Assembly (NCBI GenBank): GCA_034440635.1 | Contig: JAOTON010000333.1 | Coordinates: 62,001 to 126,000 of the forward strand | Source: Lepas anatifera | Taxonomy: Eukaryota > Arthropoda > Thecostraca > Lepadidae | Reading direction: 5' to 3' | Length of the DNA stretch: 64,000 bases | Part shown: in pieces, positions 5,691-56,818 of the stretch | Layout of the letters: every line of letters starts with the position of its first letter | Numbering within the stretch: the first letter of the stretch is position 1 | Made by a program: the position numbers and the translations under genes | The notes under the pieces: model-generated | Databases searched by the model: none | Seen by the model: the letters and a program-made list of their open reading frames with translations, nothing else | Told to the model about the DNA's origin: nothing

Positions 5691-7178
5691 TGAGCTTTAC
5701 TGGGGCGCTTCGGAGCTAAGGGGGGGCCCGGGCCCCTGGGCCCCCCTTGGATCCGTCACTGTAGGTGGCCTATTTGTTGTAATTATGTCATAACTTTACA
5801 GAGCAGCTCTATGACTAATGCCATGACCAACCAGCGTTGAGCGAAAATCCAGCAAAGCCTGCCCTCGCTTCGTGGTCTTCGTTACAAGAGCGCTGTCGTG
5901 TCTATGGTCGCGTTAGCTGTGCTGTCAGTGTTATGCGTCGAACAGCTGTGGGCAGAACTGCCGGGTCCGGCCTCCGCTGACTCATCCGCCACTACTGCGC
6001 CGCTTGACACATGTTACCAGCGACCCAAAAAAACCCTGCCGGCCAACTGCGGCGACGCGCCCCGGTCCGGCGAGCGCTGACCCGCCAACTACCTCATCAC
6101 CCGACCCGGCGGTCACGCGCTCAGCACATGAGGTCGTGTGGAACACTGATTCTGACACACCACAGCTGTGTAATGTTTAGCTCACGGCTGCAACAGCTGC
6201 CGACTTACGGTGCAAGTCTGCCGCGTGCTCTCACAGTTGGGTTTGCACGCCAGGTTCGGTCGGCTTACTGTGGACGAGCGAGCAGGAGTTACCTCCATGT
6301 CTGACACTAAGAACTCATGGTTCTGCCATGTAAGCGTTTGTGACCTCTTTGTCTCAAGGACTTTATGGATGGTTTTTATCGATTTATTTTTAAATCGAGT
6401 GCTGTCAGTGTCAGGTTCACCGAGGTTTGTTATAGTCGCAGATGTGTAGGTCAGAGAGAGGGGCCGCAAATCGGAACTCCTCGACATGATACTGAATTCA
6501 AGAAAACAAATCCCATGGCTGTTTTTGCTATAGGGTATTATTTTTAAATGGTTTTGAAAATGATAGCTGTGAAGAATGCACTGAATCCTGTTGGATGCGC
6601 GCGTTCTGTTGTCATGCCAATTGCAAGGTTAGCCTTCCTTCTGCCGTTACAGCCGGAGAGCTAGAAATTACGGCTGTCTTTCAGCTGTCGTATTTGACAG
6701 TGCCATGGTTTTCTGGGCTTAGCAACAACTCGGTTCAATATATAAGGGAAGACTTTAACACGCATTAGGCACGTCACAATGCTACATTGACGTTGTCGAG
6801 CGATTATATTATTTGAAAAGCATATATTGAATACCTATATCAGCATAACTTAGCTCATGTTGATGTCACCTAAATCCAGATCATGCTGGTTTAGGATTTT
6901 CCTCACATACAGGCTTTTCTGATGATTTAATTGCTCGATAAAACGGCTCTTAAGATGATCTGGAGCGAATGTCGTTAAAATTACGTCAAAACCGATGCCA
7001 AAGCTTTTGTAAGATTGGTTACAGTTATGAAATACGTTAGGAGACGCAAAAGGGGCATGCTGCTATTAAATCTGGATAACCACCCTGCATAATAACTGGT
7101 GTGGAATGGGTGTGAGGTAGTGTGGTCAGTCTTTAGCATGAAGCAGACTGAATTGATGATTTCCAACTGCGATTCAAT

Positions 7179-7428
7179 CATAGGCGGATCCAGGGGGCAA
7201 GGGGGCACGTGCCCCCTCCCCCGATTGACCCACGGCGCCCCCTGAAAGGTCGATGGCGCCCCCTGAAATGTCGCTTCCCACCCCCCCCAGGATGCGAAAG
7301 TCGGCGCCCACTGATAGGATTTGGCGCGCACCTGATAGGTTTTGCCGGTCATAAGTGGCGCCCTCCTGGTCCGGATGGCGCCCCCGGAAAGGTGTCCCTC
7401 CCGATCGGCAATCCTGGATCCGCCTTTG
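7179..7428. mobile_element. hAT-like MITE, GGCGGATCC family, TSD GATTCAAT
   Basis: The 250-bp element begins CATAGGCGGATCCAGG and ends with the near complement CCTGGATCCGCCTTTG. Exact 8-bp duplications GATTCAAT lie at 7171-7178 and 7429-7436. The interior is rich in GGCGCC and C-tracts and has no coding capacity. An 8-bp duplication fits the hAT superfamily. The same termini occur at 32204-32437 and 36714-37002. Block B lacks this element but has a different C-rich insertion of about 70 bp at the same point. Confidence 0.85.
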
Positions 7429-9699
7429 GATTCAATACAGTATCCCCTGCTCTCTATTCTCAAGTCACCCTCTCGATTTGTTTCATCAGCTATATTTCAC
7501 ACGGTTTATTACAGTGGCATAGCACATAGGAACTGCAGGAGAAATGAGGCGAGTTTTGGCAGCTAACAAGTTATTTACCACCAATTCTGATTTGCTGTTT
7601 ATGTCAATGTGACTAAATGTGACAATGTGACTGTGGCTATTCTACGGAATTTCTGGAAACCCGAAAGGCTTTAAGACATCTGGAAATGTGGGGGAGTTCA
7701 TAAAGCCGCTTCATACCCAAAATCATGATTGTGACCCATATTTATGCCTTTTCCCGACTGGTGTAGGTCATTATTGTAGGCTTAAGGGGTAATATTGAAT
7801 TTACTTATTATTTCCCCGAAAACAGTTCAAACAGGTGAACGATAAATGTAGTACCACTTTACAAACTGTACATAAAGGAATTATTTGAATACGCTTTTCT
7901 GATCTGCCAGCTTTTCATCAGGCTGAGTCGGCCACCATCCATTATGCCACCCCCTGTTCTCTGGATGGGAGACGCGAGACGGCAGCCCCGCCTCTTCGCA
8001 GTTCCAGCTCCACACAAAGCTGAACTAGAGTGGTTGGCCTGAGCGGCGTGTGGGGAGGGGGAGGGAGGTGGCTATTCTTTATTAACACGGCTGGGGTTAT
8101 AATACACACACAATTACTGTTTTGTCAGGCTTACAGCTTGTGTGAATCCGATGCATCCTTTGGTAGGATTTCTTTCATCTGATTCAAAGTTTTTGGTCAG
8201 TTGAGTTTTCATTGAGTCGTTGACCACGCCACTGTTATGTGTATGCTGGCATATAACACCCTGTTTGTTTCTTTACAGATGTCAACTGAGTGGAGATGCC
8301 TAACCAACCGTTCAGTATCAGAATCAATCAGACCTTGAATATGTCTGTGTTTTCAAATGCCTGTGGTAACTGATAGGCAAGTTTGTTTCTACACACAAAG
8401 GCGGAGAAAAACACTACCTGTCATATAACGCATACAGTATAAAAGTAAGTACAGCACGAAAGTATCACGCTTCTGTAATGAGCGATTGTGTTTTACGATG
8501 CGCGTACCCACAGGTTTGACACGTTTGGAATATATACCGACTTTGTATTGCTTTTTTCTGTCGTGGCGAGACACATTGAGGGTATTATTTGTTGTCTGTT
8601 GTTTATTTATAATTCCTTTCTATTTTTTCTTCTCCGCTATTTGCCACTGCCCACAGCGGTGTTCACTATAGTAATATATTCCTGTCCCACTTTTCCCCAT
8701 TCTTTTTTCTCTTACTGCCTCCATATATCTTGACTCTTGGCAGGCCTGTCTTTTGCACTCATCCATCTTCTCCAACTTCAAATTTGGTAGACTTCCTCGG
8801 TGGTTTCTTTTATTACGGAAGTTGAAAGTCTTCAGGGCATTGTTTACTTCAGAGCAACTTTCGGGGAAGCAATATGAAAGCCTCAGCTTCCGAATAAGTC
8901 TGCTACAATGTGAACATACTGCTTGCTTTGAAGGCCACATTTGCAACATTCACTCTAAGAAGTTTTTCAGCGCGCAGAGTAGCGAAATACTCCAGCGATA
9001 TAAAAGGAATGTGAATTAAAAACTTGGTTTCCTTGGGCTGAGTTTGATGTGGCTCGTGATTGAAAAAGTGAGAGAATTGCATCTTTCTATATTCTCTGAC
9101 ATCCCGTTTTGTTTGTGGAACCATTTCACTCGAAGTGAGTGACGCATCATTAGTGCTGTGTCATGATCTGACGGACACATTAGTCTCGTGAAACTGCCCT
9201 TTTTCGTATTTAGTGTCCCAAAATTTGTCTTGCACATGGGTGTGGAGAATACATTCTCAAGAGGTTACTGGAGAGGACATTTACATCTATTTTTGTGCTT
9301 TCCTTGAAACGTAAATTTTCACCGCACTTCTTGTCTTTTTGAACAAAAAGTACGTCGTTGTGCAAACGAATAAAGAGTCTCATCGGATTTCGTCGTCCGA
9401 CTTGATATTGTTCATGTTTATGCATAAAGTGACTACACAGGACAAGAAAGCCTGTATTGACGGCGATCAACTGCAGGCTTGAGTGGAAAATGAAGCACTC
9501 CAGCATAATAAGTGTGTAGAAATCGCTTTCCTGAGTGTAGCGCTCCACACTCAGAATCCAGCTATCCAAAATCCAGGATTTCGGAACACTGATCAAACTG
9601 TTTCCCTCCGCAAACTGTTTGGTGGGACGGAATTTTCATGCCAACCATTTCAGAGTGAGGAGTTAGCATACACACCCACTTGAGCTGCAGTCCCCGTTC

Positions 9700-10240
9700 A
9701 TGTGTATGTATCGCCCAGCTATCAAATCGGGCCGTGACCTTTCCGTCGGCGTTCGGTGGCGCCCAAACTCAATTACCTCCGCCTCCGCAGCTGCATAGCT
9801 TACCAAGCCGGACCGCTCCCCACTCAATCTATTCAAATACCCAGCTGCTCCAGTCCAAAGCACGTGATGGAAACGAGACGTCCGCCACGTGATTAAATCC
9901 AGGTGCGTCTCAAAATTCGGGATAGGCATAAGCCTGAAAACAGGCGATGCCTTGTCTTAAGCACGAAGCTGGTCCGTTGCAGACGGCCGTGTGTTGCCCG
10001 GTGGTGTGCCGGTAGGGCCTGTCTGTGTGCGTGTGTGTGTGTGTGTGCGACGCGCCTGCAGCTGTGCTGCCGGCGGCGGCAGCGCGAGATCAGTAGGGGC
10101 AGCCAGGGCGTATCGACCCTGAGCCCTCAGTAGTGGGCCGAACACGGCGCAGGTGTGGGGCCGCCGCCGTTGACAGGTCGCCGTGAATCAGACCGCCGCG
10201 TGTACACGGCGTCGCCGCCTCCGACAGGTAACGCCAGAGC
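9700..10240 (+). promoter_or_regulatory. CpG-rich possible promoter/noncoding first exon in block A
   Basis: The stretch is CpG-dense, carries a (GT)n microsatellite around 10023-10048 and ends in CCGACAG followed by GTAACG, a good 5' splice site at 10228. The same arrangement is in block B near 46.2-46.7 kb. A noncoding first exon is one reading, but no downstream coding exon could be linked, so this is only suggestive. Confidence 0.25.
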
Positions 10241-10420
10241 TGGCCTCTGTCTGGTGGGCTAGGGCATCTGCTGTGGGAGGGTCTGACAGTTGTGGGTTAC
10301 GGGGCCGTTACTGATGTGAGCGGGGTGCGTCAGGATAGCTCAAGTATGGCAAAATGCTCCTGAGCTGGATGCTTTGCACCTTTTTGCTACTGTATATTTC
10401 GGATAAATTAAAATGCTGGG

Positions 10421-11880: not shown

Positions 11881-11929
11881 ACCTGATTTATTCCGAAAAG
11901 GTCCTGTACCACCTAGCTGCTTAGCTCTT

Positions 11930-13062
11930 TAGAGCACTGGACCCAAGTGCTTGAAGACGGCCTCCCAGTAGATATCGCCTATTTGGACTTCTCAAAGGCT
12001 TTTGATTTGGTGCCCTACAAGCGATTAATCCTGAAACTGAGAAGCTTAGGCATAGGAGGAAAAATTTTCTGCTGGAACAAGTCTTTCCTGACGGGTAGGA
12101 GCCAGAGGGTCAGGGTTAATGGAGCACTTTCAGACTGGGCTCCGGTGACCAGCGGTATTCCACAGGGATCGGTCCTGGGCCCCACACTATTTGTCCTGTT
12201 CGTGAACGACTTGCCTCAGGGACTGCGAAGTAGTGTCCGACTATTTGCCGATGATGCCAAATTATTTGGTGAAGTAGGTAGTCGAGAGGGTGCATGTGCC
12301 TTGCAAGAGGACCTTCGCAGACTAGAATCATGGTCTGACAGATGGCTCCTGACCTTCAATGTTTCGAAATGCAGCATGCTCCACATTCGACACAACAATA
12401 GTCAACGGCACTACGAAATGAGCGGCCAACCCCTGACTCAGCTGACTATCGAAAAAGACCTGGGTGTGTTCATGAACGACCAGCTAAAGTTCCGCCGTCA
12501 AGCTGCTTCTGCCGCATCTAAGGCCAGCCAGATACTGGGGGGCCATCAAGAGGACTTTTGTCCACATGGACAAGCATGTGCTGACCCTTCTCTTTAAAGC
12601 CCTTGTCAGACCGCACCTCGAATATGCCAGTGTGGTGTGGGGCCCGTTCAACAAGGCTGACCAAATTTTGGTTGAACGGGTCCAGCGTCGTGCTACAAAA
12701 CTAGTTCCCGGTGCGCGTCCTTTGGACTATGAGCAACGGCTTAGGCTCCTCAAGCTTCCGTCTCTCTGGTACAGGCGCAAGAGGGGGACATGATCTTCGT
12801 CTTCAAGTTGATGCACGGCCAGCTGGGAGTTAGCAAGGAAGAGTTCTTCATGGATCCACCTGTCGGTGTTACGCGCGGTCACAGGTTCAAGGTTGGGAAG
12901 CCACGTGCAATAACGAGGGCAAGAAGGAACCATTTTGGAGTGCGTACTGTTTCCGACTGGAACAGCCTCACCGACTGGGTCGTCGATTCGCCATCTGTTG
13001 GTTCATTAAAAAATAACATCGACAGACACTGGGCCGACCACGCTTATGCATTCCCGACGTAG
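11930..13062 (+). pseudogene. 5'-truncated non-LTR retrotransposon reverse transcriptase (Jockey/CR1-like)
   Basis: The 11947-12597 frame carries ordered reverse transcriptase motifs: YLDFSKAFD (motif A), GIPQGSVLGP (motif B), FADD (motif C) and then LGVFMND. Translation shifts frame near 12580 into VRPHLEYASVVW (to 12793) and again near 12790 into a C-terminal tail ending at a stop at 13060-13062. That order is typical of the Jockey/CR1-type pol thumb and C-terminus. The endonuclease domain and the start of the reverse transcriptase are missing, as in 5'-truncated copies, and two frameshifts make it non-functional. A short 3' region follows to about 13150; no clear target duplication was found. 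Confidence 0.9.
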
Positions 13063-19213: not shown

Positions 19214-19300
19214 ATGGGGGATAATCAGCAACTCCTGAACCTTTTGTCTCTTCCTAATGTGCTACTGGACCCCACCAAACAAAAGGAAGCTGTAACGCTG
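19214..19300 (+). CDS. AP4B1: AP4B1 coding exon 1
   Basis: Starts MGDNQQLL and encodes residues 1-29, ending in phase 0 before GTACGT. The segment LLSLPNVLLDPTKQKEAV aligns to the N-terminal helix of AP-4 beta. The ATG lies 11 bases after a CAG preceded by CCCTTTT, so this may be the second exon of the transcript. Confidence 0.75.
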
Positions 19301-22300
19301 GTACGTTATTCAACATTACTTGTCTGGGGAAATAAATTGTAGAGCAACCATAATATGCTGCTTGGTCGAAATAAAACTTGATGCTTGAAAGTTGTAAAAC
19401 ATTGCCTGCAATGATATTGATACACGATGATACCTTTGGTTGACAGTGGTAGATATGTTAATAACTTTCACATCATCAATCATCATTATATCTGTAAACC
19501 CTGTTTGAGCCGACTTCGAAATGCGCAAAAATACAGCTCAAACCACCATGTGCTATCCATCCAGCCTTTTGCTCGTCCAGGCTCGTCCATCCTTTCTCTA
19601 CTGGCAATCTTCAATTCGTTAACACACCAGCATACGGAGATTGGAGTGACAAGCGTCGTGACAATTCACCGAACATGTTGCAGTTATGTCAGCTGATAAA
19701 CACGGACTCTGACGAGCCGTGCATCGTACAGCCCAGTATCAAGCTGCTGTCATCCCACCAGCCGCTCACTCGCATAGTCGTGATGCAGCTGGTCCAGAGG
19801 TAAATTGTCCGGAACGGTCGCCAGGGCGGGAACGGAGTAGCAGTGACGATCGACTTTTTGTTGTTGTAAAACGTTGGAAATGTGTCGCAAATGAGTTTCC
19901 CAGGTGAGATGGAAAAGTTCACAAATTCTCAGTCATAGTGTAGCCAGTGTCAGCCAAATTCTCAGTCCAGTGTATTTTATATCCAGGATTCGAGGAGACA
20001 GGCCAGTATACACCTTGTCATCTTATAATCATGCTCCTCACAACGGCACTACAAAACCTATCAACATGAAAACCAGCCAGTCTGCCGTGTGAGACGTGCA
20101 GGTGCTGAGCGTGTCGTACCCCGCAGGCACGTGACACGGAACCCTGACATCATGCCCCAGGCCACGAACGCGCTGCTGAAATGTGCTGTCGACCCCAACC
20201 CGGCCGTGAGGCGGGCGGCTGTCAGGTGAGCCGGGGCGCTCTGCAATGGCCACGTGGGGCCAAACCGCTGGTGACCGTGACGACCCAATGCGGCGTCTGT
20301 GCTGAAACTGACTTGTTCGGGACTGTAGTTTTTAGTGTGGTGTCGTTTTAGCTGAGTGAAGACATGTAATTGTGTTGTAAAATAGTTATCGGGCTTGCCG
20401 TTCGTTAATAAGAACATTCGAGAATTGTGGGTCGCTTTGGGCGAGACGATTTGGAGGCTGAAAAACGTCCCGGGACTGGATGCAACATTTGCGCTCACCC
20501 CCCCTCCCCCCTGGTAGTGGGGATGTGTCGGTGTACTGGTGCACTGGAAGTAGGCTGAAAGTTGTTATTTCTCAATACGTTTTACCATTTCAACGAAAAT
20601 CCAGTGACGTGTCTGTGTATGTGCGACAGCACGCTGGCCTGTGTGCCGGGCGCCTCTGAGGTTTCGCTGCTGGTGGTGACGTGTCTGTGTATGTGCGACA
20701 GCACGCTGGCCTGTGTGCCGGGCGCCGCCGAGGTGTCGCTGCCGGTGGTAGCGGCCGCCCTCCGTGACCCCCACCCCTCGGTCCAGCGCGCCGCCGCCGT
20801 CGCCTGTCGCGTTCTGCCCCGCACCAACCCGCACAACGAGCTCGGTATGCAGCGCCGAACTCAGCTACCACCACAGCGGGGTAGAGTTCGGATGCCCGTT
20901 TCGGTGTGTTTGGAAGTTTACTGTTTTGATGTTATATGAGTCCGCCAGAACTGCCGGCACAAGGGCTCGAGTTTGCCTCATCACGCCTTGTCTGGCTCTT
21001 TTTGTTTTCACGATAAATATAAATTGACGAATCGCTTGAATGCGTTCATGTTACATATGGGTATTTTCACCAGTATCCGTCGTTACGATTTTATTCATTC
21101 ACCATCATATGTATCGTTTTCTACACATGCCTTGAACCGCCGCAGAGGTCGGTGTGCGGTTGTGTGCGCCCGTGTCCGCCCCGCCTCTGACCGCCGGCAT
21201 CCTCCCGCGGCCGCAGACCACGTGGACCAGCTGTACCGACTGATCCGCTCGGAGGACCCGCTCCTGCTGCACGCCTGCCTCACCAGCCTGGAGACGCTGC
21301 TGGCGCCGGAGGGGGGCGTCGTCGTCAGCCGAGCCATGGTCAAACACCTCGCCAACAGGTGACGTCAGACACATCACCGCCGGGATGCATTAGATACATT
21401 ACCGTCCGGTGACATCAGGTGCACCAGTGCCACCCGACGTCAGACAGCACAAATAGGTTACATCAGACGCATCACAAACATGTGACGACAAACTTGTCAC
21501 CAACATGTAACGTCAGACATCACCGCCGGCGTACATTAGATACATCACCGTCAGGTGACGTCAGGCACACCGCTGTCAGGCGACGTCAGACACATCACAA
21601 ACAGGTTACATCAGACATATCACCAACATGTGACGTCAGCATCTTACCAACAGATGGCGTCAGAGACACCAGACCCCAGGTGACGTTAGACGCACCGTTG
21701 ATATGTAAAGTAGGACACGTCACAAACAGGTGACATCAGACTCATTATCAGGTGACCTGGGACACATCATTAACAGGTGACGTCAGACAAACCACCCATT
21801 AACGACGTGGCACGTCTCACTGGATGTTTACGTCGAATATCCACGTAAATTGTTCATGGCTGCGCCGTTTCATTAATGTTCCTTCCAAGTACTAACCATG
21901 GGTTACGGCAGAGCTAAATAAATGCCGGAATGAAATTTGATCACTCGTCTCTAAGCAAAAACAACTTCAATTTGGGAGAAAATCTGGCTGGGATTTAGTT
22001 CTTCACTGATTCTTGAGAAGTCAATTATGGGGTCCTCGCTGAAGTTGAACCGGAAGAGGATACAATATGAAATATAACTTTCGCTGGTAACTTGAAAATG
22101 GCAACTGCCTCTTTTAAGAGGGCATGTGACTTGGTCGCTTGTAGTCTGCATTTCAAGCAAACATGTGTACGCGAAAAGTCGAGCCTAGTCTTTATTTGCC
22201 TGATTCAAAAGACATTTTTATTCGTTTTTTCGCTTTTTCCGCGTGGAGTGCCTCGTGTGCTAACGAGATGCCACCTGAATGCCATAAATGACTTATTTTC

Positions 22301-25300
22301 CACGCACAATTCCGATCAGGATCGCACGATGTATCCTGATGCGTTTACGATACGGGTTGGGCTTTTGGCGATGGAAACCGAGTTTCTTGTCAATTCGTAT
22401 CCAGCCAGAGATGTTAGCATATGGCAGCGTGATAGTGAAGGCTTTCCTTTCAGTGCAGAGAGGGAAAATATATGTCTGTAGAGAGTAAAGCTTTCTTTGT
22501 TGTTTCACAAGATGAAAGTAAAACAATTGTATTTAACGTGAAAGAAAACTACTCATCAAACAAAATTCATTAAACAAAAATATTATTCATGAAACACGAT
22601 TGGATACTTGGGCGAAGGAAGTGAAATCAAACGTCAATAGTGCGCTAGAAATGGAGACAGAACTGAGATGAAGACTCTTCCATCCGTTACAGCTCTATCA
22701 ATATCCAAGCCAAAGTGTCATGGAACCGCGATCGCTGACTCTGTTCTATCCGGATCGCCTCATTGTGCATGGAAACTGGGTATTTGTGACAACCTCTATT
22801 TCTCCTCTGCTGACGCTGTGTTCTAGTGAAAGTTTAGAACCCCCAATACCCCCCCTCCAGGCGGACCGGTATGATCCGTCGACCAGCTGACCGCCGCTGG
22901 TCGCCAGGAGTCGGGAGTCTCCTGTCGTGGTTATGGCCGCTAATTTCCTATACTGACCACTGTGCGCTGGCAGGAGCCGTGAGCTGCCGGACATGGCGCT
23001 GGCGGAGGTGCTGCGGCTTTTCCCGCGGTACACGCCCGGCTCGGACTCTGAGCGGCTGGCACTGATGAACCGGCTCGACTGGCTGCTGGCCAGCCCCCAC
23101 CCGCATCTGGTGCAGGTACGGGTCACAGTCTGCCAGGGGTGGCCTGGTACATGCACGGGTCACAGTCTCCCAGGGGTGGCCTGGTGCAGGTACGGGTCAC
23201 AGTCTCCCAGGGGTGGCCTGGTGCAGGTACGGGTCACAGTCTCCCAGGGGTGGCCTGGTGCAGGTACGGGTCACAGTCTCCCAGGGGTGGCCTGGTACAT
23301 GCACGGGTCACAGTCTCCCAGGGGTGGCCTGGTGCAGGTACGGGTCACAGTCTCCCAGGGGTGGCCTGGTACATGCACGGGTCACAGTCTCCCAGGGGTG
23401 GCCTGGTGCAGGTACGGGTCACAGTATGCCAGGGGCGACCTGGTGCAGGTACAGGTCACAGTCTTCCAGGGGTGGCCTGGTACATGCACGGGTCACAGTC
23501 TCCCAGGGGTGGCCTGGTACACACACGGGTCACAGTATGCCAGGGGTGGCCTGGTGCAGGTACGGGTCACAGTATGCCAGGGGCGACCTGGTGCAGGTAC
23601 GGGTCACAGTCTCCCAGGGGTGGCCTGGTACATGCACGGGTCACAGTCTCCCAGGGGTGGCCTGGTGCAGGTACGGGTCACAGTATGCCAGGGGCGACCT
23701 GGTGCAGGTACGGGTCACAGTCTCCCAGGGGTGGCCTGGTACATGCACGGGTCACAGTCTCCCAGGGGTGGCCTGGTGCAGGTACGGGTCACAGTATGCC
23801 AGGGGCGACCTGGTGCAGGTACGGGTCACAGTCTCCCAGGGGTGGCCTGGTGCAGGTACGGGTCACAGTATGCCAGGGGCGACCTGGTGCAGGCACGGGT
23901 CACAGTCTCCCAGGGGGTGGCCTGGTACATGCACGGGTCACAGTCTCCCAGGGGTGGCCTGGTGCAGGTACGGGTCACAGTCTCCCAGGGGTGGCCTGGT
24001 GCAGGTACGGGTCACAGTCTCCCAGGGGTGGCCTGGGTACATGCACGGGCCACAGTATGCCAGGGGTGGCCTGGTGCAGGTACGGGTCACAGTCTCCCAG
24101 GGGCGACCTGGTGCAGGTACGGGTCACAGTCTCCCAGGGGTGGCCTGGTGCAGGTACGGGTCACAGTCTCCCGGGGGCGACCTGGTGCAGGTACGGGTCA
24201 CAGTCTCCCAGGGGCGACCTGGTGCAGGTACGGGTCACAGTCTCCCAGGGGTGGCCTGGTGCAGGTACGGGTCACAGTCTCCCAGGGGTGGCCTGGTACA
24301 TGCACGGGCCACAGTATGCCAGGGGCGACCTGGTGCAGGTACGGGTCACAGTCTCCCGGGGGCGACCTGGTGCAGGTACGGGTCACAGTCTCCCAGGGGT
24401 GGCCTGGTGCAGGTACGGGTCACAGTATGCCAGGGGTGGCCTGGTGCAGGTACGGGTCACAGTCTCCCAGGGGTGGCCTGGTACATGCACGGGCCACAGT
24501 ATGCCAGGGGCGACCTGGTGCAGGTACGGGTCACAGTCTCCCAGGGGCGACCTGGTGCAGGTACGGGTCACAGTCTTCCAGGGGTGGCCTGGTACATGCA
24601 CGGGTCACAGTCTCCCAGGGGCGACCTGGTGCAGGTACGGGTCACAGTCTCCCAGGGGTGGCCTGGTACATGCACGGGTCACAGTCTTCCAGGGGTGGCC
24701 TGGTACATGCACGGGTCACAGTCTCCCAGGGGCGACCTGGTGCAGGTACGGGTCACAGTCTCCCAGGGGTGGCCTGGTACATGCACGGGTCACAGTCTCC
24801 CAGGGGTGGCCTGGTACATGCACGGGTCACAGTCTCCCAGGGGTGGCCTGGTACATGCACGAGTCACAGTCTCCCAGGGGGCGACCTGGTGCAGGTACGG
24901 GTCACAGTCTCCCAGGGGTGGCCTGGTACATGCACGGGTCACAGTCTCCCAGGGGTGGCCTGGTACATGCACGGGTCACAGTCTCCCAGGGGTGGCCTGG
25001 TACATGCACGGGTCACAGTCTCCCAGGGGCGACCTGGTGCAGGTACGGGTCACAGTCTCCCAGGGGTGGCCTGGTACATGCACGGGTCACAGTCTCCCAG
25101 GGGCGACCTGTTGCGGGTACGGGTCACAGTCTCTCGGCGGCTGAGGGCTCCGGTAGTGTCACGGCACAAATGGTCGCTGCACTGCGAAATCAGTCTAAAT
25201 GAATTACACCGTCGTAACTATTAATTTTGTTTAAGGCTAGAAACCACAACGGTGAAAAAACGAGATTTGACGCTCAATTCTCGTGTACGAACACATCTGG

Positions 25301-28300
25301 TCGTATTGAGGCGCCGCTGCAGGTCCCGCACGTCGACAGAAGCGTAGATGCGTAGCTTCCCCGTCCGTTGGCAGGCGGCGCTGTAGCTTCCCCGTCCGTC
25401 GGCAGGCGGCGCTGTAGCTTCCCCGTCCGTCGGCAGGCGGCGCTGTAGCTTCCCCGTCCGTCGGCGGGCGGCGCTGTAGCTTCCCCGTCCGTCGGCAGGC
25501 GGCGCTGTAGCTTCCCCGTCCTTCGGCAGGCGGCGCTGTAGCTTCCCGTCCGTTGGCAGGCGGCGCTGTAGCTTCCCCGTCCGTCGGCAGGCGGCGCTGT
25601 AGCTTCCCCGTCCGTCGGCAGGCGGCGCTGTAGCTTCCCCGTCCGTCGGCGGGCGGCGCTGTAGCTTCCCCGTCCGTCGGCAGGCGGCGCTGTAGCTTCC
25701 CCGTCCGTTGGCAGGCGGCGCTGTAGCTTCCCCGTCCGTCGGCAGGCGGCGCTGTAGCTTCCCCGTCCGTTGGCAGGCGGCGCTGTAGCTTCCCCGTCCG
25801 TCGGCAGGCGGCGCTGTAGCTTCCCCGTCCGTCGGCAGGCGGCGCTGTAGCTTCCCCGTCCGTCGGCAGGCGGCGCTGTAGCTTCCCCGTCCGTCGGCAG
25901 GCGGCGCTGTAGCTCCCCGTCCGTTGGCAGGCGGCGCTGTAGCTTCCCCGTCCGTCGGCAGGCGGCGCTGTAGCTTCCCCGTCCGTCGGCAGGCGGCGCT
26001 GTAGCTTCCCCGTCCGTCGGCAGGCGGCGCTGTAGCTTCCCCGTCCGTCGGCAGGCGGCGCTGTAGCTCCCCGTCCGTTGGCAGGCGGCGCTGTAGCTTC
26101 CCCGTCCGTCGGCAGGCGGCGCTGTAGCTTCCCCGTCCGTTGGCAGGCGGCGCTGTAGCTTCCCCGTCCGTCGGCAGGCGGCGCTGTAGCTTCCCCGTCC
26201 GTCGGCAGGCGGCGCTGTAGCTCCCCGTCCGTTGGCAGGCGGCGCTGTAGCTTCCCCGTCCGTCGGCAGGCGGCGCTGTAGCTTCCCGTCCGTTGGCAGG
26301 CGGCGCTGTAGCTTCCCCGTCCGTCGGCAGGCGGCGCTGTAGCTTCCCCGTCCGTCGGCAGGCGGCGCTGTAGCTTCCCCGTCCGTCGGCAGGCGGCGCT
26401 GTAGCTTCCCCGTCCGTCGGCAGGCGGCGCTGTAGCTTCCCCGTCCGTTGGCAGGCGGCGCTGTAGCTTCCCCGTCCGTCGGCAGGCGGCGCTGTAGCTT
26501 CCCCGTCCGTTGGCAGGCGGCGCTGTAGCTTCCCCGTCCGTTGGCAGGCGGCGCTGCGGGTGTTCTTCCACCTGTGCTCGGGCGCGCTGGCACACCTGCG
26601 GGCGGACGCGGTGGCGCGCGCGGCGGCGGCCCTCTGCGGTCCCGGTAGCCACGGCAGCGGCCCAGAGCTGCGCCAGCTCACTCTGGAGACCGTGCAGCAG
26701 CTGGGGCGGGAACACTACCCTGCGTTCTGCCCGCACTACAGGTGCGCTGACCCGAGTCTTTGTCCTGGTTTTGTGTTATTGGCTTGTGATTTATGCCAGC
26801 TACTAATATAATTCTGCATCCATGCAAGAGTAATAAGAATACTCTTGACAGCGCCGGTCTAGAAACCTCAAACAATGCTGAGGTGTTCGTCATCTTAGGC
26901 GTAGGACAAGCAAGCGCTCTGAACTGCCATGGTAAGATGCCTGTCGTAATAATTTTGACGAAATTACATACTTGAGTAAATTTAAGGGTATTATTTATGG
27001 CAAATAACGGATGTGGTCGTATTTCTGCTCAGAGATTACTAAGCTCAATAGTTTGTAGTTCATTTGCATCTCCAAATAGCAAACACTCTGTCTGCAGGGG
27101 TGACTAATTTGATGACGCTTGATGCTACCATGCATACCAAATTTAATAGCGGGAGGGGCGGCGAGAGAATATGTTTTTGCAGCGATCTCTGTTTAATTTT
27201 TCCTTATGGTTTAGATGGGTGTTACCTTGGTGAGGTGTGGGTATTGCCCGCAGCAATCCGGAGTTATTCCCTTCGCCACAGCAACGATTGCGTGGACGTC
27301 CCATGAATTTGATACAGCCAGCACTTCCGCCCCGAGGCATTCGACTCTTACGACATCCCACAGGTTTTGAGATGGCCTAAGTAGCGAATGATTTTTTCGT
27401 TGGCACTTCAGCATTACGCCATGTTGTGATTACCGATGGACTCTTGGGGGCCTAGGGTAGGTGGTTTAGGAGCGGAACAAACTTCGACTCCTGTAAAGTT
27501 TTTTTCGGCAACGATGAGTTCTGGGACAAATGAAATACGAAACGGGTTTCGGTTTGCTCCATTACATGTTTATCTCACACCCAATCCCACTTTAAAGGTG
27601 CCACCTACCCTTTAAAGACACGGTGGACGCGTAATCCGCCAAGTGTTGGACCACTATAATGGCTGTAGTCAATACCTTGGAACTATGGAGCATCATTTTC
27701 TGCGGCCTTTGTACTCAAGGGTATAATGATGTCTTGAGATGAGTACTTTCGAAATAGAGGTGGGACTTTCTAGGCCCGGGGCCCGGGGCAAAAGCCCGGC
27801 CCAGGCCCGCGGGCTTTGACCGGGCCTGAAGGCCTGATTTAAGCCAATGTCGGGCTGATAACGGGCTTCACCCAGGCTTATTCCGGGCTTCAACTAAACT
27901 GGGACTTCAAGTCAATTTTCTGTAAGTTAAATAAGCCTTTTTCAGTACAGACCTAGTTTTTTCCACTGAAACATAACCTTATTCATGCACCAGCAGCTTT
28001 TGAAAATGCATTTACAATTAATTTTGACTTTTAGACATACATCAGGAATGTAAACGCATGAAGCTCTAGCTTTCTATCTGTTACTCATGCCAGGGTCAAA
28101 AGCAAGTTACTTAAACCTGAATTAATATTTAAAATCTAATATTGAATAATGCCTACAGGGCACCCATCCATGCCGTACTGTCATCTTATGAATATCCTAA
28201 TTACTTTAAAATTTTCAAGTCATATATGGGTGAACAAAATATAAATTGTGATAGCATATTTGTTACTTCCATATTGTCAGTATACCATTTCAAAGGAAGT

Positions 28301-31255
28301 CATTTAACCAATTTGCTGCTAACATATTGATACTAACACCTAGCTCTAGCTAGAAAATTCTTTCGAGAAGCTTTCTTCTCCAGGTAAAAAGAAAATGTTA
28401 TCTATGGAGCCATTCCCATGTCCTCTACGAAAAATGGTGAAGTAAATATGTCAGGTACAAACTATCTAGTGGGAGCCCATAATTGTCAAATTGGCCTGGT
28501 AACTCTAGCTGCAAGAACAAATGTTGATAAGTTTGACCCTTCCACAGCTTCATCTTGCTCTTTCATTGCCCAAAAGATGCAAAATCCACTCAGAAAGGGC
28601 TAGTATAAACAAGGAAATAGCCACAAAGAAAACATGTTTTTGATCGAAGTACTTCAAAACATATAAATTAGTCAGTTGTGTGGAGATACTGGGGAGAGCA
28701 GTCAGCCTTAGAAGGAACCTTTGAAATTACACCAAAACATGAATATACTTGACAGTATGTGTTCCTTTTTCCTTGTGGGAATACTTCCCTGGCCTCTATG
28801 AAATACAACTTCTATTATAAGCTTTGAACTTGAACATAACAGCACTTCCCTCCCACCACACTAAAGGTATTATCGCAGTCAGTAGGTGGATCACATCTCG
28901 CGGTTCAAAAGGATTACATCAGAAGGTCCACTGATCAAAGGGTCTAATGTTCATAGGTTTAGACCTTTTGAATAAGAAGTCCACAAACAAGTGCACAAAA
29001 AGTGGCCTATTCTCAGGAACAAAAGAAATGCACCACACACTTTGTGATTATTTTTTAAATCTGTGAAATTTTAAAATATATTTTCAAAAGTCTTGAAATA
29101 TTTTCGCTGAAATAAACTTACTATTCTGGTAAATTTTGGTGAAAAATGTTTTCATAAATGATTGCTCTAATGTAGACAAGCACGGCGCTTCAGATACCTA
29201 CTAAGCGCAAGCCCGTCAAATACAACAAAGCAAACAGAAATAGTGTTCAAGCCCAAATGGTGATGTGGATGGGATTGAGTTGTTTTTTTGTGTCAGATTT
29301 AATTTTTGGTGGAGATTGGTGCAATATTTTTATTCAATGTTTGGTGCGAACCTGTGGAAAACTAGTGGTTCCTTATCAAGATAGTTCTTTATGGCTGGTG
29401 GTTTGATAATTGTATATGGCTGATGGGCCTTGTTCATGTTGGCCTGTTGGCTTACCTACTTTCCAGACCGGGCTGACCCAAGCAGAACATTCTTTTAACT
29501 ATCTTCCAAGCTGTTTAGTGACTAAACTAAAAGAAAATGTTCACATGTATCAATTGAGGGACAATGTGAAGGAGTTTTGGTTCCTTCACAGCCATTCCGC
29601 CATGATATTCTGAAAAGTTTTAGCTGAAAACTTGTCACTGCTCTCTCCTCTATTTATAAACATTATTGGAACTCAATTGTGAGGCTTGTGCCAGCATATA
29701 ATGATTTATAAAAGTGCAAAGATGGAGGAAATGTCTGACATGAGTGGACTTATTTCATCCCGATTCTTATAGCTGCCATGTGCATACCTCTATCTAGAAT
29801 ACCCTTTGTTTTTATAAGGTGATGCTGGTCATTACCTGAAGTAAGCTTGCATCATAAGCAAGCCATGTTTCATACTGTGTTTTTCAGTATCATTTTCTGC
29901 TGAATTATTAAGATAGCTGAGGCTACTGATGCTACATGCACCTTTTTGATATGGTTTTGGGTGAAACCAAAACTTTTTACAGGATAAATTGGCTTAAAAC
30001 ATATATTTGAAACAGCTTTAAAGTAAATAAATTTTGTATATAGTCGTTAATGGTTTTCCATGACACCGGGCCTTCCCGGGCTTGATAATCCATTTCTTCC
30101 ACAAACCGGGCTTGTGACGGGCTTCTAAAATCAGCAGCCGGCCGGGCCCGGCCCGGGCCTGCAAAATTGCCTGAAACTCCCACCTCTATTTCGAAACAAA
30201 GTATCGTGTTTGTGATAAGAAAGTAGGCGTTCACTTTTTCATTAATATGTCGGGCCCAAGTTTATGTGGTGTTCACCGTGCTATGGCGTAAATAGACGGG
30301 CCGTCTGGGTCCGCACATTAAATCCGGCGTGACCTCCCGCAATTATATTAGTCAGATCTGGGATAGCCTCGGTTACTAGTGTGCTTATTCCCGTGTTGTG
30401 ATTGACTGCCGCCGCCGCAGGTACTTTCTGCCGCGTCCGCCGGACGGTGACGCCCTATCTGAGCGGCTGCTCTCCTTCCTGCCCCACCTCGCCGGTCCGG
30501 AGCAGGCGCCCGACATTGCGCGCGAACTGAGCGCGCGTCTGCCGGCGCCGCGCCTCCAGGCGGCGGCGGCGCGCGCCCTGGTGCGGCTGGGCCGGCGCCG
30601 GCCGGAGCTGGCCGCCGCCGTGGCGGACCCGCTGGTGCGGCTGTGTCGCAGCGGCGGCGCTGCGGCGGTGGCCGGCGCGCTGACGGCGGCAGACCTGGCG
30701 CCGCTGCCGGCGGCTGCGCGCTCGCAGCTGCTGTCAGCGCCGCTGGCGCAGCTGGAGCAGCTGCCGGCGCCGGCGCTGACCCGGCTGCTGCCCCTGGTGG
30801 GCCGCTGGGGCGCTGAGCTGGAGGCGGCGCCGGCGCGGCTGCGGCAGGCAGTGGCGCGGTACGGCACGCTGGATGCCGCCGGCAGGGCCGCTCTGCTGGA
30901 GGCGACGGCGCGGGTGCTGGTGAAGCGTCCGGCGGAGCTGCAGCTGACGCTGGGGCGGCTGCTGGAGCTCAGCTGGCGCTCAGGCGGGGAGCTGCGCCGG
31001 CTCGCCGCGCAGCTGTACGCCGTGCTGGCTTCTGACCAGGCGCGGACTCTGCTGCAGCCGAGGGTGGAGGAGTGTTCGGCTGCGTTGGCAGGGTACGAGG
31101 GGTTCCACACGGTAGGTATCGACCCTGCGGCGCTGGACGCGGCCCAGCAGCCGATTGGGATTGAGAATGCGGAGCGAGAGGGTGGAGAGACCGACATCAG
31201 GGAGCTGGAGGATCCAGGAGGGCTGACGGAGAGCTTCACGGGCGTTGTGATATAA
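19214..31255 (+). CDS. AP4B1: AP-4 complex subunit beta (trunk-only), eight coding exons
   Basis: Beta subunit of AP-4, the adaptor that sorts cargo at the trans-Golgi network. Coding exons: 19214-19300, 19684-19799, 20127-20225, 20702-20844, 21217-21358, 22974-23115, 26548-26741 and 30421-31255. All introns are GT-AG, phases agree, and the joined frame is 585 codons plus TAA. Family matches run through the trunk: NPDI..ATNALLKC..DPNPAVR (about 77-96), RSTLACVPG (101-109), LYRLIRSEDP (154-163), the AP-4 beta signature EGGVV (180-184), HLANR (192-196), AEVL..FPRY (about 205-214), and RPAELQ..LGRLL (477 onward). Known animal AP-4 beta is about 740 residues; this one stops in the hinge, so the ear is absent. 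Exon 8 is extremely GC- and Ala/Leu-rich. AP-4 is missing from Drosophila and C. elegans. The upstream acceptor at 19194-19202 suggests a noncoding first exon. Confidence 0.83.
19684..19799 (+). CDS. AP4B1: AP4B1 coding exon 2
   Basis: Encodes residues 30-67 plus two bases of codon 68, followed by GTAAAT. The start after TTGCAG was chosen over the nearby GTCAG (19692) because it gives a gapless alignment with the family between KEAVTL and IKLLSSHQ. Confidence 0.7.
20127..20225 (+). CDS. AP4B1: AP4B1 coding exon 3
   Basis: After CCCCGCAG; encodes HVTRNPDIMPQATNALLKC and DPNPAVRRAAV, the best-conserved N-terminal adaptin helices. Ends in phase 2 before GTGAGC. Confidence 0.85.
20604..20747 (+). 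repeat. AP4B1: 72-bp tandem duplication of the exon 4 acceptor
   Basis: Units 20604-20675 and 20676-20747 each hold the intron end GTGCGACAG and the exon start CACGCTGGCCTGTGTGCC. Units differ at a few bases. The period is exactly 24 codons and contains no stop, so splicing to the upstream acceptor (exon start 20630) instead of the downstream one (20702) would add 24 residues in frame. Confidence 0.85.
20702..20844 (+). CDS. AP4B1: AP4B1 coding exon 4
   Basis: Encodes residues 101-149 (split codons at both ends): STLACVPGAAEVSLPVV, AALRDPHPSVQRAAAV and ACRVLPRTNPHNEL, then GTATGC. The downstream of two duplicated acceptors was chosen because the resulting protein aligns to the family without an insertion. 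Confidence 0.85.
21217..21358 (+). CDS. AP4B1: AP4B1 coding exon 5
   Basis: After GGCCGCAG. Encodes residues 149-196, including LYRLIRSEDPLLLHACLTSL and the AP-4 beta hallmark EGGVVVSR. Ends AACAG before GTGACG in phase 2. The donor begins a tandem array in the intron. Confidence 0.9.
21352..21800 (+). repeat. Degenerate tandem array seeded by the exon 5 donor
   Basis: The exon-intron junction CCAACAG|GTGACGTCAGACAC recurs many times down the intron, for example near 21600, 21650, 21726 and 21773, as variants of AACAGGTGACGTCAGACA with a period near 20-30 bp. Copies are diverged, and spacing varies. Many retain an AGGT(G/T)AC core that could act as a donor. Confidence 0.75.
22974..23115 (+). 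CDS. AP4B1: AP4B1 coding exon 6
   Basis: After GCTGGCAG. Encodes residues 196-243, including AEVLRLFPRYTPGSDSERL and LDWLLASPHPHLVQ, aligning to the family segment that ends just before a conserved helix resumed by exon 7. Ends CTGGTGCAG before GTACGG in phase 0; this junction is the unit core of the following array. Confidence 0.88.
23107..25137 (+). repeat. 37-bp minisatellite made from the exon 6 donor junction
   Basis: About 54 near-perfect units of 37 bp. The commonest form runs GTACGGGTCACAGTCTCCCA, GGGGTGG and then CCTGGTGCAG, so each such unit rebuilds the last nine exon 6 bases plus the GT donor. A second form replaces GTGCAGGTACGGGT by GTACATGCACGGGT and loses the donor. Because 37 is not a multiple of three and the unit lacks stops, all three plus-strand frames stay open for more than 640 codons; I treat this as an artefact of the repeat, not as coding sequence. 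Confidence 0.95.
25341..26556 (+). repeat. 31-bp minisatellite made from the exon 7 acceptor junction
   Basis: About 39 units of CTTCCCCGTCCGTCGGCAGG plus CGGCGCTGTAG (a few are 30 bp). Each holds a pyrimidine tract, CAG and the first nine bases of exon 7 (GCGGCGCTG), followed by TAG. The last copy runs into the real exon. Entry at any upstream acceptor would read Ala-Ala-Leu-stop. All minus-strand frames are open for more than 430 codons, again only because the unit has no stop on that strand. Confidence 0.95.
26548..26741 (+). CDS. AP4B1: AP4B1 coding exon 7
   Basis: After GTTGGCAG, the last of the repeated acceptors. Encodes residues 244-307 plus two bases: AALRVFFHLCSGALAHL, then ELRQLTLETVQQLGREHYPA and FCPHYR. 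It continues the family helix begun in exon 6. Ends CACTACAG before GTGCGC. Confidence 0.88.
27755..30188. mobile_element. Non-autonomous hAT transposon (2.4 kb) with TSD TTTCGAAA
   Basis: The ends are TAGAGGTGGGA and its exact complement, flanked by identical 8-bp TTTCGAAA at 27747-27754 and 30189-30196. Within about 130 bp of each end, GC-rich motifs such as CGGGCC and CGGGCTT are repeated many times, while the interior is AT-rich. The 8-bp duplication and TAGAGGTGGGA-type terminus fit hAT. No transposase-sized frame is visible. The element lies inside AP4B1 intron 7 and makes up most of it. Confidence 0.88.
30421..31255 (+). CDS. AP4B1: AP4B1 coding exon 8 (terminal)
   Basis: After GCCGCCGCAG. 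Encodes residues 308-585 and TAA. Composition is strongly Ala/Leu/Arg-rich with long CG runs, unlike exon 1. The RPAELQLTLGRLLELSW segment and the following helix match the end of the AP-4 beta trunk; the usual FYY after it reads QLYAVL here. The last 60 residues are acidic hinge, ending ESFTGVVI. No ear domain follows, and the poly(A) signal is 118 bases past the stop. Confidence 0.88.
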
Positions 31256-42000: not shown

Positions 42001-43748
42001 GGTTATAGGTGGCCTATTTTTTGTAATTATGTCATAACTTTATAGAGCAGCTCTATGACTAATGCTATGACCAACCAGCGTTGAGCGAAAATCCAGCAAA
42101 GCCTGCCCTCGCTTCGTGGTCTTCGTTACAAGAGCGCTGTCGTGTCTATGGTCGCGTTAGCTGTGCTGTCAGTGTTATGCGTCGAACAGCTGTGGGCAGA
42201 ACTGCCGGGTCCGGCCTCCGCTGACTCATCCGCCACTACTGCGCCGCTTGACACATGTTACCAGCGACCTAAAAAACCCTGCCGGCCAACTGCGGCGACG
42301 CGCCCCGGTCCGGCGAGCGCTGACCCGCCAACTACCTCATCACCCGACCCGGCGGTCACGCGCTCAGCACATGAGGTCGTGTGGAACACTGATTCTGACA
42401 CACCACAGCTGTGTAATGTTTAGCTCACGGCTGCAACAGCTGCCGACTTACGGTGCAAGTCTGCCGCGTGCTCTCACAGTTGGGTTTGCACGCCAGGTTC
42501 GGTCGGCTTACTGTGGACGAGCGAGCAGGAGTTACCTCCATGTCTGACACTGAGAACTCATGGTTCTGCCATGTAAGCGTTTGTGACCTCTTTGTCTCAA
42601 GGACTTCATTGATGGTTTTTATCGATTTATTTTTAAATCGAGTGCTGTCAGTGTCAGGTTCACCGATGTTTGTTTTAATCGCAGATGTGTAGGTCAGAGA
42701 GAGAGAGGGGCCGCAAATCGGAACTCCTCAGCATGATACTGAATTCAAGAAAACAAATCCCATGGCTGTTTTTGCCATAGGGTATTATTTTTTAAATGGT
42801 TTTGAAAATGATAGCTGTGAAGAATGCACTGAATCCTGTTGGATGCGCGCGTTCTGTTGTCATGCCAATTGCAAGGTCAGCTTTCCTTCTGCCGTTACAG
42901 CCGGAGAGCTAGAAATTACGGCTGTCTTTCAGCCGTCGTATTTGACAGTGCCATGGTTTTCTGGGCTTAGCAACAACTCGGTTCAATACATAAGGGAAAG
43001 CTTTAACAGGCATGAGGCACGTCACAATGCTACCTTGACGTTGTCAAGCGATTAATATTATTTGAAAAGTATATATTAAATACCTATATCAGCATAACTT
43101 AGCTCATGTTGATATCACCACAATCCAGATCATGCTGGTCTAGGCCTTTTCCTCACATACAGGCTTTTCTGATGATTTAATTGCTCGATAAAACGGTTCT
43201 TAAGATGATCTGGAGCGAATGTCGTTAAAATTACGTCAAAACCGATGCCAAAACTTTTGTAAGATTGGTTACAGTTATGAAATATGTTAGCAGACGCAAA
43301 AGGGGCTTGCTGCTATTAAATCTGGATAACCACCCTGCATAATAACTGGTGTTGAATGGGTGTGAGGTAGTGTGGTCAGTCTTTAGCATGAAGCAGACTG
43401 AATTGATGATTTCCAACTGCGATTCAGTTATCCCCACCCCCCCCGAAGCACCCCCAACCCCCCCCTGAGTCCCCAACATGTTGGCCCCCCCACCCCCCAC
43501 CCGTTCAATACAGTATCCCCTGCTCTCTATTCTCAAGTCACTCTCTCGCTTTGTTTCATCAGCTATATTTCACACGGTTTATTACAGTGTCATAGCACAT
43601 AGGAACTGCAGGAGAAATGAGGCGAGTTTTGGCAGCTAACAAGTTATTTACCACCAATTCTGATTTGCTGTTTATGTCAATGTGACTAAATGTGACAATG
43701 TGACTGTGGCTATTCTACGGAATTTCTGGAAACACGAAAGGCTTTAAG

Positions 43749-44132
43749 GGATGTGGCACCTTGGTCGATTTTGGATTTAGTGAAATTAGGCGTACTTTTA
43801 GCCCAAAATAATGAAACCCTTATTTTCTAAAATGTACATAAGCTCATATTTTGTTTTTAAAATACTCCTCTAGAAAATAAATAAATATCGCCTGTGGATG
43901 ATGTCGATCTGGCAACCACTCATACTTGACGCTTCAGGGCTTCGTTGGCTGATGCTCATCTGCGTCGTTATGTCGTCACCGCGCTCACATGGCCGCTGGC
44001 ACGGGCTGATGGGGGCTGGTGTGGTGGTGCTGTTTTTTCGAAATATTGGTTCCAGACAATGAAATTGGTGTCCGGGTTTTCCGACTTGTTTACGACTTGG
44101 TATCTCGTTAAAATCACTTGTGTGCCACATTC
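43749..44132. mobile_element. TIR element present only in block B
   Basis: The 384-bp element starts GGATGTGGCAC and ends GTGCCACATTC, flanked by CTTTAAG at 43742-43748 and 44133-44139. Block A has the single-copy site at 7669-7675. The 7-bp duplication (8 with a mismatch) leaves the superfamily open. Confidence 0.85.
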
Positions 44133-56547: not shown

Positions 56548-56658
56548 GTGCGGCGGTTCATCCCGGCCTACTGTAGCCGTCTCCTGGCCGGCAAGCGCGC
56601 CTCTGCTGCCAGTGCAGTGATGCGGCGCGCTCTGGGCGCCAGCCAGGAGGTTTTGTGA
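56548..56658 (+). CDS. Candidate terminal exon abutting the 46-bp array
   Basis: After TCTCGGCAG, an open frame encodes VRRFIPAYCSRLLAGKRASA and 16 further residues, ending in TGA. I recognise no family. Its first 48 bases align to the repeat unit, so either the array was copied from this exon or the exon is the last, diverged unit. No upstream exon was identified. An alternative is that this is promoter or 5'UTR of the gene starting at 56699; a CRE-like TGACGTCA overlaps the stop. Confidence 0.3.
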   Translation: MRRFIPAYCSRLLAGKRASAASAVMRRALGASQEVL

Positions 56659-56698: not shown

Positions 56699-56818
56699 AT
56701 GAAGAAGTTCAACTTCAAGGAAATGTTTGACGGGCTGCTGGGCAGTGCGCCCTCCAGCGCCCGGCTGGAGCAGCAGTATCCGGAGAGGCTCAGTGCCACC
56801 GACTTCTTCGCCATGAAC
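56699..56818 (+). CDS. Possible first coding exon of a tomosyn/Lgl-family gene
   Basis: Encodes 40 residues beginning MKKFNFKEMFDGLLGSAP and ending TDFFAMN, followed by GTGAGT in phase 0. Tomosyn (syntaxin-binding protein 5) proteins start with a similar basic-aromatic segment, (M)(K/R)KF(N/T), then a DG(L/F) motif and an E..L...F stretch; these are seen here. Tomosyns are WD-repeat regulators of SNARE assembly. The next expected exon, with a HGFP-type motif, was not found, so it may lie beyond the window or the match may be chance. Confidence 0.4.

Follow-up and report, generated by a model that had tools for sequence, protein, structure and literature searches.

Tandem arrays spanning splice junctions at both ends of one intron in an AP4B1-like gene of the barnacle Lepas anatifera

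It has been reported that amphioxus genes contain 'mirages', minisatellites which span splice junctions, with units of 10-72 bp in Adh3 and of about 150-160 bp in globin (PMC3087553, PMC3902484). According to these papers, mirages can lie at both 5' and 3' borders, many of their copies carry AG/GT signals, and regular splicing is reported to be intact. Unstable length, between haplotypes or in somatic cells, is a further trait of mirages. Two such repeats of 2-7 units were found in the single gene PGBD5, and haplotypes with 3 and 6 units in BflGb6. A minisatellite in human IFI6 (6-16) supplies several splice donors (Turri et al. 1995, cited in PMC4526556), and isoforms are made with its downstream units; no acceptor array is mentioned for IFI6 in the citing sentence. 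In human segmentally duplicated genes, internal tandem repeats at exon-intron boundaries alter gene structure (PMC2812944); these repeats are summarized there as units of about 30 bp and about 4 copies on average, in recent paralogs, with novel introns formed. For arthropods, the literature matches listed include a lectin family of prawns in which repeats of 30/33 bp vary (PMC7536079), and no junction-spanning minisatellite of a barnacle or other arthropod appeared in the titles and abstract beginnings of these matches.

The AP4B1-like gene analysed here lies in a window of 64,000 nt, which is the whole stretch of DNA under study. As in the mirages, its repeat units (a 37-bp array, a 31-bp array, a 72-bp pair and a 25-bp array) span exon-intron borders set by homology, and splice signals are present in many copies (32/55 donor units and 37/39 acceptor units). 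Unlike the mirages, intron 6 of the barnacle gene is arrayed at both ends, which together make up 94% of the intron, and four junctions of the gene are involved, one of them decayed. The two large arrays have 55 and 39 units, compared with 3 and 6 in BflGb6 and 2-7 in PGBD5. Judged from these sequence features, the barnacle arrays are of the same kind as the amphioxus mirages, in another phylum. They also resemble the IFI6 minisatellite, as far as it is outlined in the citing paper, in that tandem units carry donor sites, and the human segmental-duplication repeats in that minisatellite units are placed at exon-intron boundaries. Small duplications copy splice signals here as in the summarized cases of intron gain by tandem genomic duplication; unlike those, the barnacle case lengthens an existing intron.

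The eight exons of the gene (Table 1) were joined into a reading frame of 585 aa with no internal stops, and all internal borders were GT/AG. The predicted protein matched human AP-4 beta-1 (9u9i) with an E value of 6.1e-37 and three proteins of Amphibalanus amphitrite (best E 1.8e-182), two of which carry the name AP-4 complex subunit beta-1. The protein search scored the 8,000 candidates that had the most words in common with the query, so further barnacle homologues may be missed. Since the alignments with the human protein and with all three A. amphitrite proteins cross the exon 6/7 border without a gap, the coding side of this border is ancestral. A codon-usage scan gave no second convincing multi-exon gene.

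Table 1 Features of the AP4B1-like gene (positions in the window)
Feature	Position	Strand	Remarks
AP4B1-like gene	19214..31255	+	eight-exon CDS, borders backed by homology
CDS exons 1-4	19214-19300, 19684-19799, 20127-20225, 20702-20844	+	AP4B1-like
CDS exons 5-8	21217-21358, 22974-23115, 26548-26741, 30421-31255	+	AP4B1-like
72-bp tandem duplication, 2 copies	20604-20747/20749	+	spans exon-4 acceptor; TRF
Decayed ~25-bp array	21353..21795	+	headed by exon-5 donor, 21358/21359
Intron 6	23116-26547	+	3,432 nt
37-bp array	23107..25133	+	spans exon-6 donor; TRF period 37, 54.7 copies, 89% match
Unique middle of intron 6	25137..25351	+	215 nt examined
31-bp array	25352..26556	+	spans exon-7 acceptor; TRF period 31, 39.0 copies, 96% match

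An earlier note on this DNA had described the two ends of intron 6 as arrays, each lying across its own splice junction and separated by about 200 bp of unique sequence. TRF and a parse into units recovered this structure, with about 215 nt between the arrays, which occupy 93.6% of the intron. By wrap-around parsing, the 37-bp array was divided into 55 units, the last one partial, and the 31-bp array into 39 full units; the array ends supplied to the parser determine a 13-nt lead-in and how long the partial unit is. In the first 37-bp unit, the terminal 9 nt of exon 6 (CTGGTGCAG) are followed by the GT of the authentic donor (23115/23116); in the last 31-bp unit, the AG of the authentic acceptor (26547/26548) precedes the initial 9 nt of exon 7 (GCGGCGCTG). 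The two units are unrelated, with local scores of 5 (+ strand) and 7 (- strand) where shuffles average 7.6 and 7.9, and a common unit behind both arrays was rejected on the lack of similarity above shuffles. These results support the view, also taken in the earlier note, of two independent expansions in one intron, each started across an exon border. It is very unlikely that misassembly inflated or invented the arrays. Both contain exact internal repeats that do not overlap, the longest being 133 nt in the 37-bp array and 162 nt in the 31-bp array, which is enough to confuse short-read assemblers, but variant units are interleaved irregularly, both arrays pass cleanly into the exons on the outer side, and the decayed 25-bp array is unlike an assembly product; the number of copies could nevertheless be in error.

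The statement in the earlier note that the intron presents dozens of near-identical donors needs correction: CAG/GT was lost in 23/55 of the 37-bp units, 20/55 being a donor-less b-type variant and 3/55 of other form. AG was kept in nearly all 31-bp units. In all likelihood, the outermost donor and the last acceptor are still the sites used in splicing, because the copies in intron 6 have only 9 nt of exon, without an exon body; exon definition would thus pick the outermost sites. Joining of the normal donor to an upstream exon-7 acceptor would lead to a stop after three codons, since all 36 of the 36 intact upstream acceptors yield Ala-Ala-Leu-stop (AAL-stop) in the normal phase. This coding consequence also bears on a functional explanation, by which the arrays are kept since many donors and acceptors tune splicing, give isoforms (as in human IFI6) or add an in-frame repeat peptide. 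All three forward frames of the 37-bp array are stop-free, 13 of 33 CAGGT sites (the authentic site counted) join exon 7 in frame, and human IFI6 is summarized as employing downstream repeat units as donors. With the immediate stops, the many lost donors, no insert at the border in the A. amphitrite proteins and pairing between the arrays not beyond that of shuffles, we regard such a function as improbable.

The earlier note missed two further repeats of this gene that span junctions, one at the exon-4 acceptor and one at the exon-5 donor. The exon-4 acceptor (20701/20702) has an upstream copy at 20629/20630, in frame. The two copies of the 72-bp duplication differ at 4 sites, each of them in the part that derives from the exon, and two residues are changed; the proximal copy retains a Pro common to A. 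amphitrite, whose proteins align without an extra exon-4 copy. At exon 5, the TRF call (21436-21789, 62% match) starts 77 bp into the intron. The TRF consensus, from whose computation the junction was excluded, equals the exon-5 donor at 24/25 bases, with a score of 48 against 24 for the best of 4,929 random 35-mers, and more matching stretches are found between the donor and the called array. The 25-bp array was therefore assigned to the exon-5 donor.

A second copy scoring at least 17/24 within 600 nt was found for 4 of the 14 coding junctions (A4, D5, D6 and A7) and for none of the remaining 10. By comparison, among 1,047 positions in array-free parts of the gene not one reached 15, and, with six repeat stretches excluded, 0.45% of 2,215 positions in the window reached 17 (binomial P 4e-7). 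When the arrays were included, 28% of 1,100 gene positions scored at least 17, the same as 4/14. This length-biased null is unimpressive, and the claim of a junction bias therefore rests on counts of founding duplications, not of bases. All four non-coding arrays in the gene with a TRF score of at least 50 straddle a junction, the 25-bp array via its consensus link; random seed placement gave P 2.7e-5 for the four, partly post hoc, and P 0.006 for the two arrays found after the given pair. Short repeats with TRF scores of 30-49 in the introns do not touch junctions. The sample is one gene in one window, which was picked for its odd look, and the gene is the sole one modelled.

A chance origin, in which minisatellite-rich sequence touches some junctions and junctions are not favoured, seems unlikely on these counts, though less so than the two explanations above. 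The window is rich in repeats, with 22 merged loci of TRF score at least 50 covering 9.1 kb of its 64 kb, 18 of the 22 are without a known junction (though gene modelling covered one gene), and the count by length agrees with such a view; against it stand both seed counts, and the fact that in every case the junction is held by the outermost unit and no more. A 46-bp array at 54336-56580, whose unit has CGGCAG/GTGCGG, was considered as another junction array and set aside, as no gene border was established. The ORF at 56702-56821 had no Pfam match, and a look for tomosyn-like motifs downstream gave nothing convincing.

We consider it likely that small tandem duplications arose recurrently at the junctions, that arrays then grew, and that the outermost, exon-attached sites are still used. 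Duplications of 25-72 bp would have repeatedly caught junctions of the AP4B1-like gene, each one extending from exon into intron or from intron into exon. Of these, three may have become arrays via unequal exchange or slippage, and one would have stayed at two copies. As selection would maintain the original, outermost junction, which remains functional, the added copies would sit on the intron side and lengthen the intron from its ends. The TRF match values of the four arrays (62, 89, 94 and 96%) differ, which suggests separate events; array homogenisation can mask age, and match values are therefore weak clocks.

Breaks at spliceosome-associated or R-loop-prone sites could have driven the duplications. 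R-loops as the cause of all arrays were rejected, as a clear positive G-skew is confined to the 37-bp array (about +0.15), the value for the 31-bp array being about 0. A duplex of one array with the other, which would loop the intron ends together, was also discarded: its energy of -48.4 is weaker than the mean of -56.4 for 500 mononucleotide shuffles, 89% of which reached at least the same strength. When doubled units were folded, nothing unusual emerged against 300 shuffles each.

The AP4B1-like gene is a striking example of a kind already known, and suggests that introns may grow at their splice borders. It is conceivable, though we hold this only tentatively, that splice junctions in the barnacle lineage are mutational hot spots for tandem duplication, that introns grow from both ends as their own borders are copied and that older introns hold decayed copies of their own splice sites. 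If true, intron growth in an arthropod and in amphioxus would have followed a general, convergent route, which would also provide raw material for intron gain. Should junction-seeded arrays prove general in the lineage, tandem duplication would recur at splice junctions, introns could expand from their own ends, and the old question of how introns lengthen and are gained could be settled by counts within a single genome.

Splice-site choice is put to a natural stress test in this gene, which has dozens of near-identical donors and acceptors but lacks an obvious branch point close to the real exon-7 acceptor. TnA is absent from the 31-bp consensus unit, and no yUnAy motif occurs in the 1.2 kb preceding this acceptor. 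Such motifs are also absent from about 70 to 12 nt upstream of acceptors A3 and A4, and the absence at A7 is therefore only suggestive. A branch point inside the repeat would be a non-consensus site. From the unique middle to the acceptor, only two branch-point-like yUnAy motifs were found, at 25221 and 25267, both in the 215-nt middle; with a branch point there, 83 AGs would be passed before the authentic AG, or 84 with it.

The eight exons of the AP4B1-like gene were joined into a 585-aa frame without internal stop, and all internal borders were GT/AG (see table). The best solved-structure match of the protein was human AP-4 beta-1 (9u9i, E 6.1e-37), followed by the beta chains of AP-1, AP-2 and AP-3. 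A protein search, with scoring restricted to the 8,000 candidates with the most words in common, gave three matches, all from the barnacle Amphibalanus amphitrite. Two were named AP-4 complex subunit beta-1, while the top one (E 1.8e-182; 52% identity across 89% in local alignment) was named uncharacterized; identities in a multiple alignment with the three proteins were 65, 62 and 68%. A barnacle is therefore the most likely source of the window. Pfam searches with exons 6, 7 and 8, each alone, gave no match over the cut-off.

Features of the AP4B1-like gene and its junction-spanning repeats (positions within the window; TRF, tandem-repeat finder)
Feature	Position	Strand	Remark
AP4B1-like gene CDS	19214-19300, 19684-19799, 20127-20225, 20702-20844, 21217-21358, 22974-23115, 26548-26741, 30421-31255	+	eight exons joined
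72-bp repeat, exon-4 acceptor	20604-20749	+	TRF, two copies
Decayed exon-5 donor array	21436-21789 as reported	+	TRF, period 25, 62% match
37-bp array, exon-6 donor	23107-25133	+	TRF, 54.7 copies
31-bp array, exon-7 acceptor	25352-26556	+	TRF, 39.0 copies

The earlier note had described intron 6 as opening with about 54 copies of a 37-bp unit and closing with about 39 copies of an unrelated 31-bp unit, with only about 200 bp of unique sequence in between. This description held: the TRF copy numbers, which are contingent on the assembly, agreed with it, the two units were without relation on both strands, and about 215 nt of the intron was unique. Parsed unit by unit, the donor array contained 55 units (the last partial) and the acceptor array 39, and together they made up 93.6% of the 3,432-nt intron. 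Each array takes in 9 nt of the adjoining exon: from exon 6 at the start of the first 37-bp unit, and from exon 7 at the end of the last 31-bp unit. Neither human AP4B1 nor any of the three Amphibalanus proteins showed a gap at the exon 6/7 border when aligned. On this basis, these 9-nt stretches of exon seem to be ancestral coding sequence, and the arrays look to have arisen from the junctions rather than the junctions from the arrays.

CAG|GT was retained in 32 of the 55 donor units, a ACATGCAC variant occurred in 20 and other sequences in three; AG was retained in 37/39 acceptor units. In the donor-less (b-type) 37-bp units, GTACATGCAC replaces the GTGCAGGTAC of the donor-bearing (A-type) units, whose reverse complement is GTACCTGCAC. 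A 10-bp micro-inversion of the quasi-palindromic donor with one further change would seem to account for the b-type unit better than three independent substitutions, since 9/10 bases are alike under the former versus 7/10 under the latter.

For each of the 36 upstream acceptors with GGCAG|GCGGCGCTG, the normal phase gives Ala-Ala-Leu-stop, whereas the authentic exon-7 acceptor keeps the frame open. All forward frames of the donor array are free of stops. Counting the authentic donor, there are 33 CAGGT sites: 13 are in frame with exon 7, 12 reach a stop before exon 7 ends and eight continue in another frame. The consensus 31-bp unit contains no TnA branch-point core. From the unique middle through the acceptor of intron 6, yUnAy motifs were found only at 25221 and 25267, both in the middle, and 84 AGs lie between 25226 and the authentic exon-7 acceptor, counting that one. 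This is only suggestive, because yUnAy was also absent about 70 to 12 nt upstream of the exon-3 and exon-4 acceptors. We infer that exon definition chooses the splice sites joined to real exon bodies.

Two further junctions were affected. Each 72-bp copy at the exon-4 acceptor consists of 26 nt from the end of intron 3 and 46 nt from the start of exon 4, and all four sites that differ between the copies fall in the exon-derived part. By translation, splicing to the upstream copy would keep the frame and lengthen the protein by 24 residues, an insert that the Amphibalanus proteins do not have; a Pro common to these proteins is retained only in the downstream copy. At the exon-5 donor, the TRF array starts 77 bp into the intron, and its 25-bp consensus was therefore computed without the junction. 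This consensus nevertheless matched the exon-5 donor in 24/25 bases over a single stretch free of gaps, with a score of 48; 4,929 random 35-mers drawn from the remainder of the window reached at most 24. An exon-5 junction probe matched 17 stretches at 21353-21795 at a score of at least 18, the junction itself counted; 13 of them reached at least 24, versus one elsewhere on the + strand. On these consensus and probe matches, the working exon-5 donor seems to be the original, still intact, from which the decayed copies descend.

The 72-bp unit (20604-20747), at its start as judged by eye, and the 25-bp donor unit (21353-21377) are similar on opposite strands (local score 13, matched by 0/200 shuffles; one among 20 comparisons). 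Given this likeness, base pairing between the two intron ends would be possible in the pre-mRNA, in the region of exons 4-5.

To estimate the odds of such repeats, the 24 bases around each of the 14 coding junctions were sought again within 600 nt. Four junctions scored at least 17 (exon-4 acceptor 24, exon-5 donor 17, exon-6 donor 21, exon-7 acceptor 21), and the remaining ten scored 6.5-9. Outside the arrays, none of 1,047 gene positions scored 15 or above; in the window with six repeat stretches excluded, 0.45% of 2,215 positions scored at least 17, giving a P of 4e-7 that rests on a null excluding arrays. With arrays included, 28% of 1,100 sampled gene positions reached at least 17, the same share as 4/14. 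The fair counting unit is the founding duplication. When every array was counted as a single unit, the four non-coding arrays of the gene (TRF score at least 50) would all straddle a junction by chance with a probability of 2.7e-5; for only the two discovered after the given pair, the probability was 0.006. A fifth row of the gene at this threshold, 30652-30714, was excluded since it lies within exon 8; at TRF scores of 30-49, more short repeats occur in the introns, off the junctions. These figures support the need for a genome-wide test and are no substitute for one, because the gene was picked for its odd look.

The TRF match of the four repeats (62, 89, 94 and 96%) differs, which suggests separate events, with array homogenisation blurring their age. 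All four could be accounted for if a short stretch straddling the border was duplicated in tandem and then extended by unequal exchange or slippage; exon-side copies would break the protein, and growth is accordingly seen towards the intron. G-skew favouring R-loops was about +0.15 at the 37-bp array and absent at the 31-bp array. No pairing between these two arrays and no unusual fold of their units was found.

It has been reported that tandem repeats called mirages lie over exon-intron boundaries in amphioxus, at 5' and 3' borders alike, with units of 10-72 bp and somatic instability in Adh3, two BflGb6 haplotypes of 6 and 3 units, and apparently normal splicing (PMC3087553). TnC is an additional case, and in PGBD5 exons 3 and 4 are overlapped by 60-bp and 108-bp repeats, which sets a precedent for multiple repeats of this type in one gene (PMC3902484). 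In human, IFI6 has a donor minisatellite with downstream units in use (PMC4526556), and recent paralogs are known to carry tandem repeats where exon and intron meet (PMC2812944). In view of these precedents, the AP4B1-like arrays belong to an already known kind of repeat. No junction-spanning minisatellite of a barnacle or other arthropod was among the literature matches listed; noteworthy here are the phylum, the independent involvement of both ends of one intron, and the four junctions hit within a single gene, one visibly decaying.

Elsewhere in the window, a 46-bp array (54336-56580, 48 copies by TRF) has a unit resembling a branch point, then a pyrimidine tract, then CAG|GTGCGG. It ends about 120 bp upstream of an ATG, with TGACGTCA in between, which we take to be CRE-like. 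Many ORFs occur in identical or nearly identical form in both 6008-10245 and 42161-46722; the two regions would seem to be duplicates of a single repeat or transposon-like segment. A reverse-transcriptase ORF lies at 11917-12597 (Pfam RVT_1, E 8.6e-20), and 1662-5420 holds a long, partly decayed complex array set, with 19-bp units and higher-order periods of 329-365 bp in much of it (TRF).
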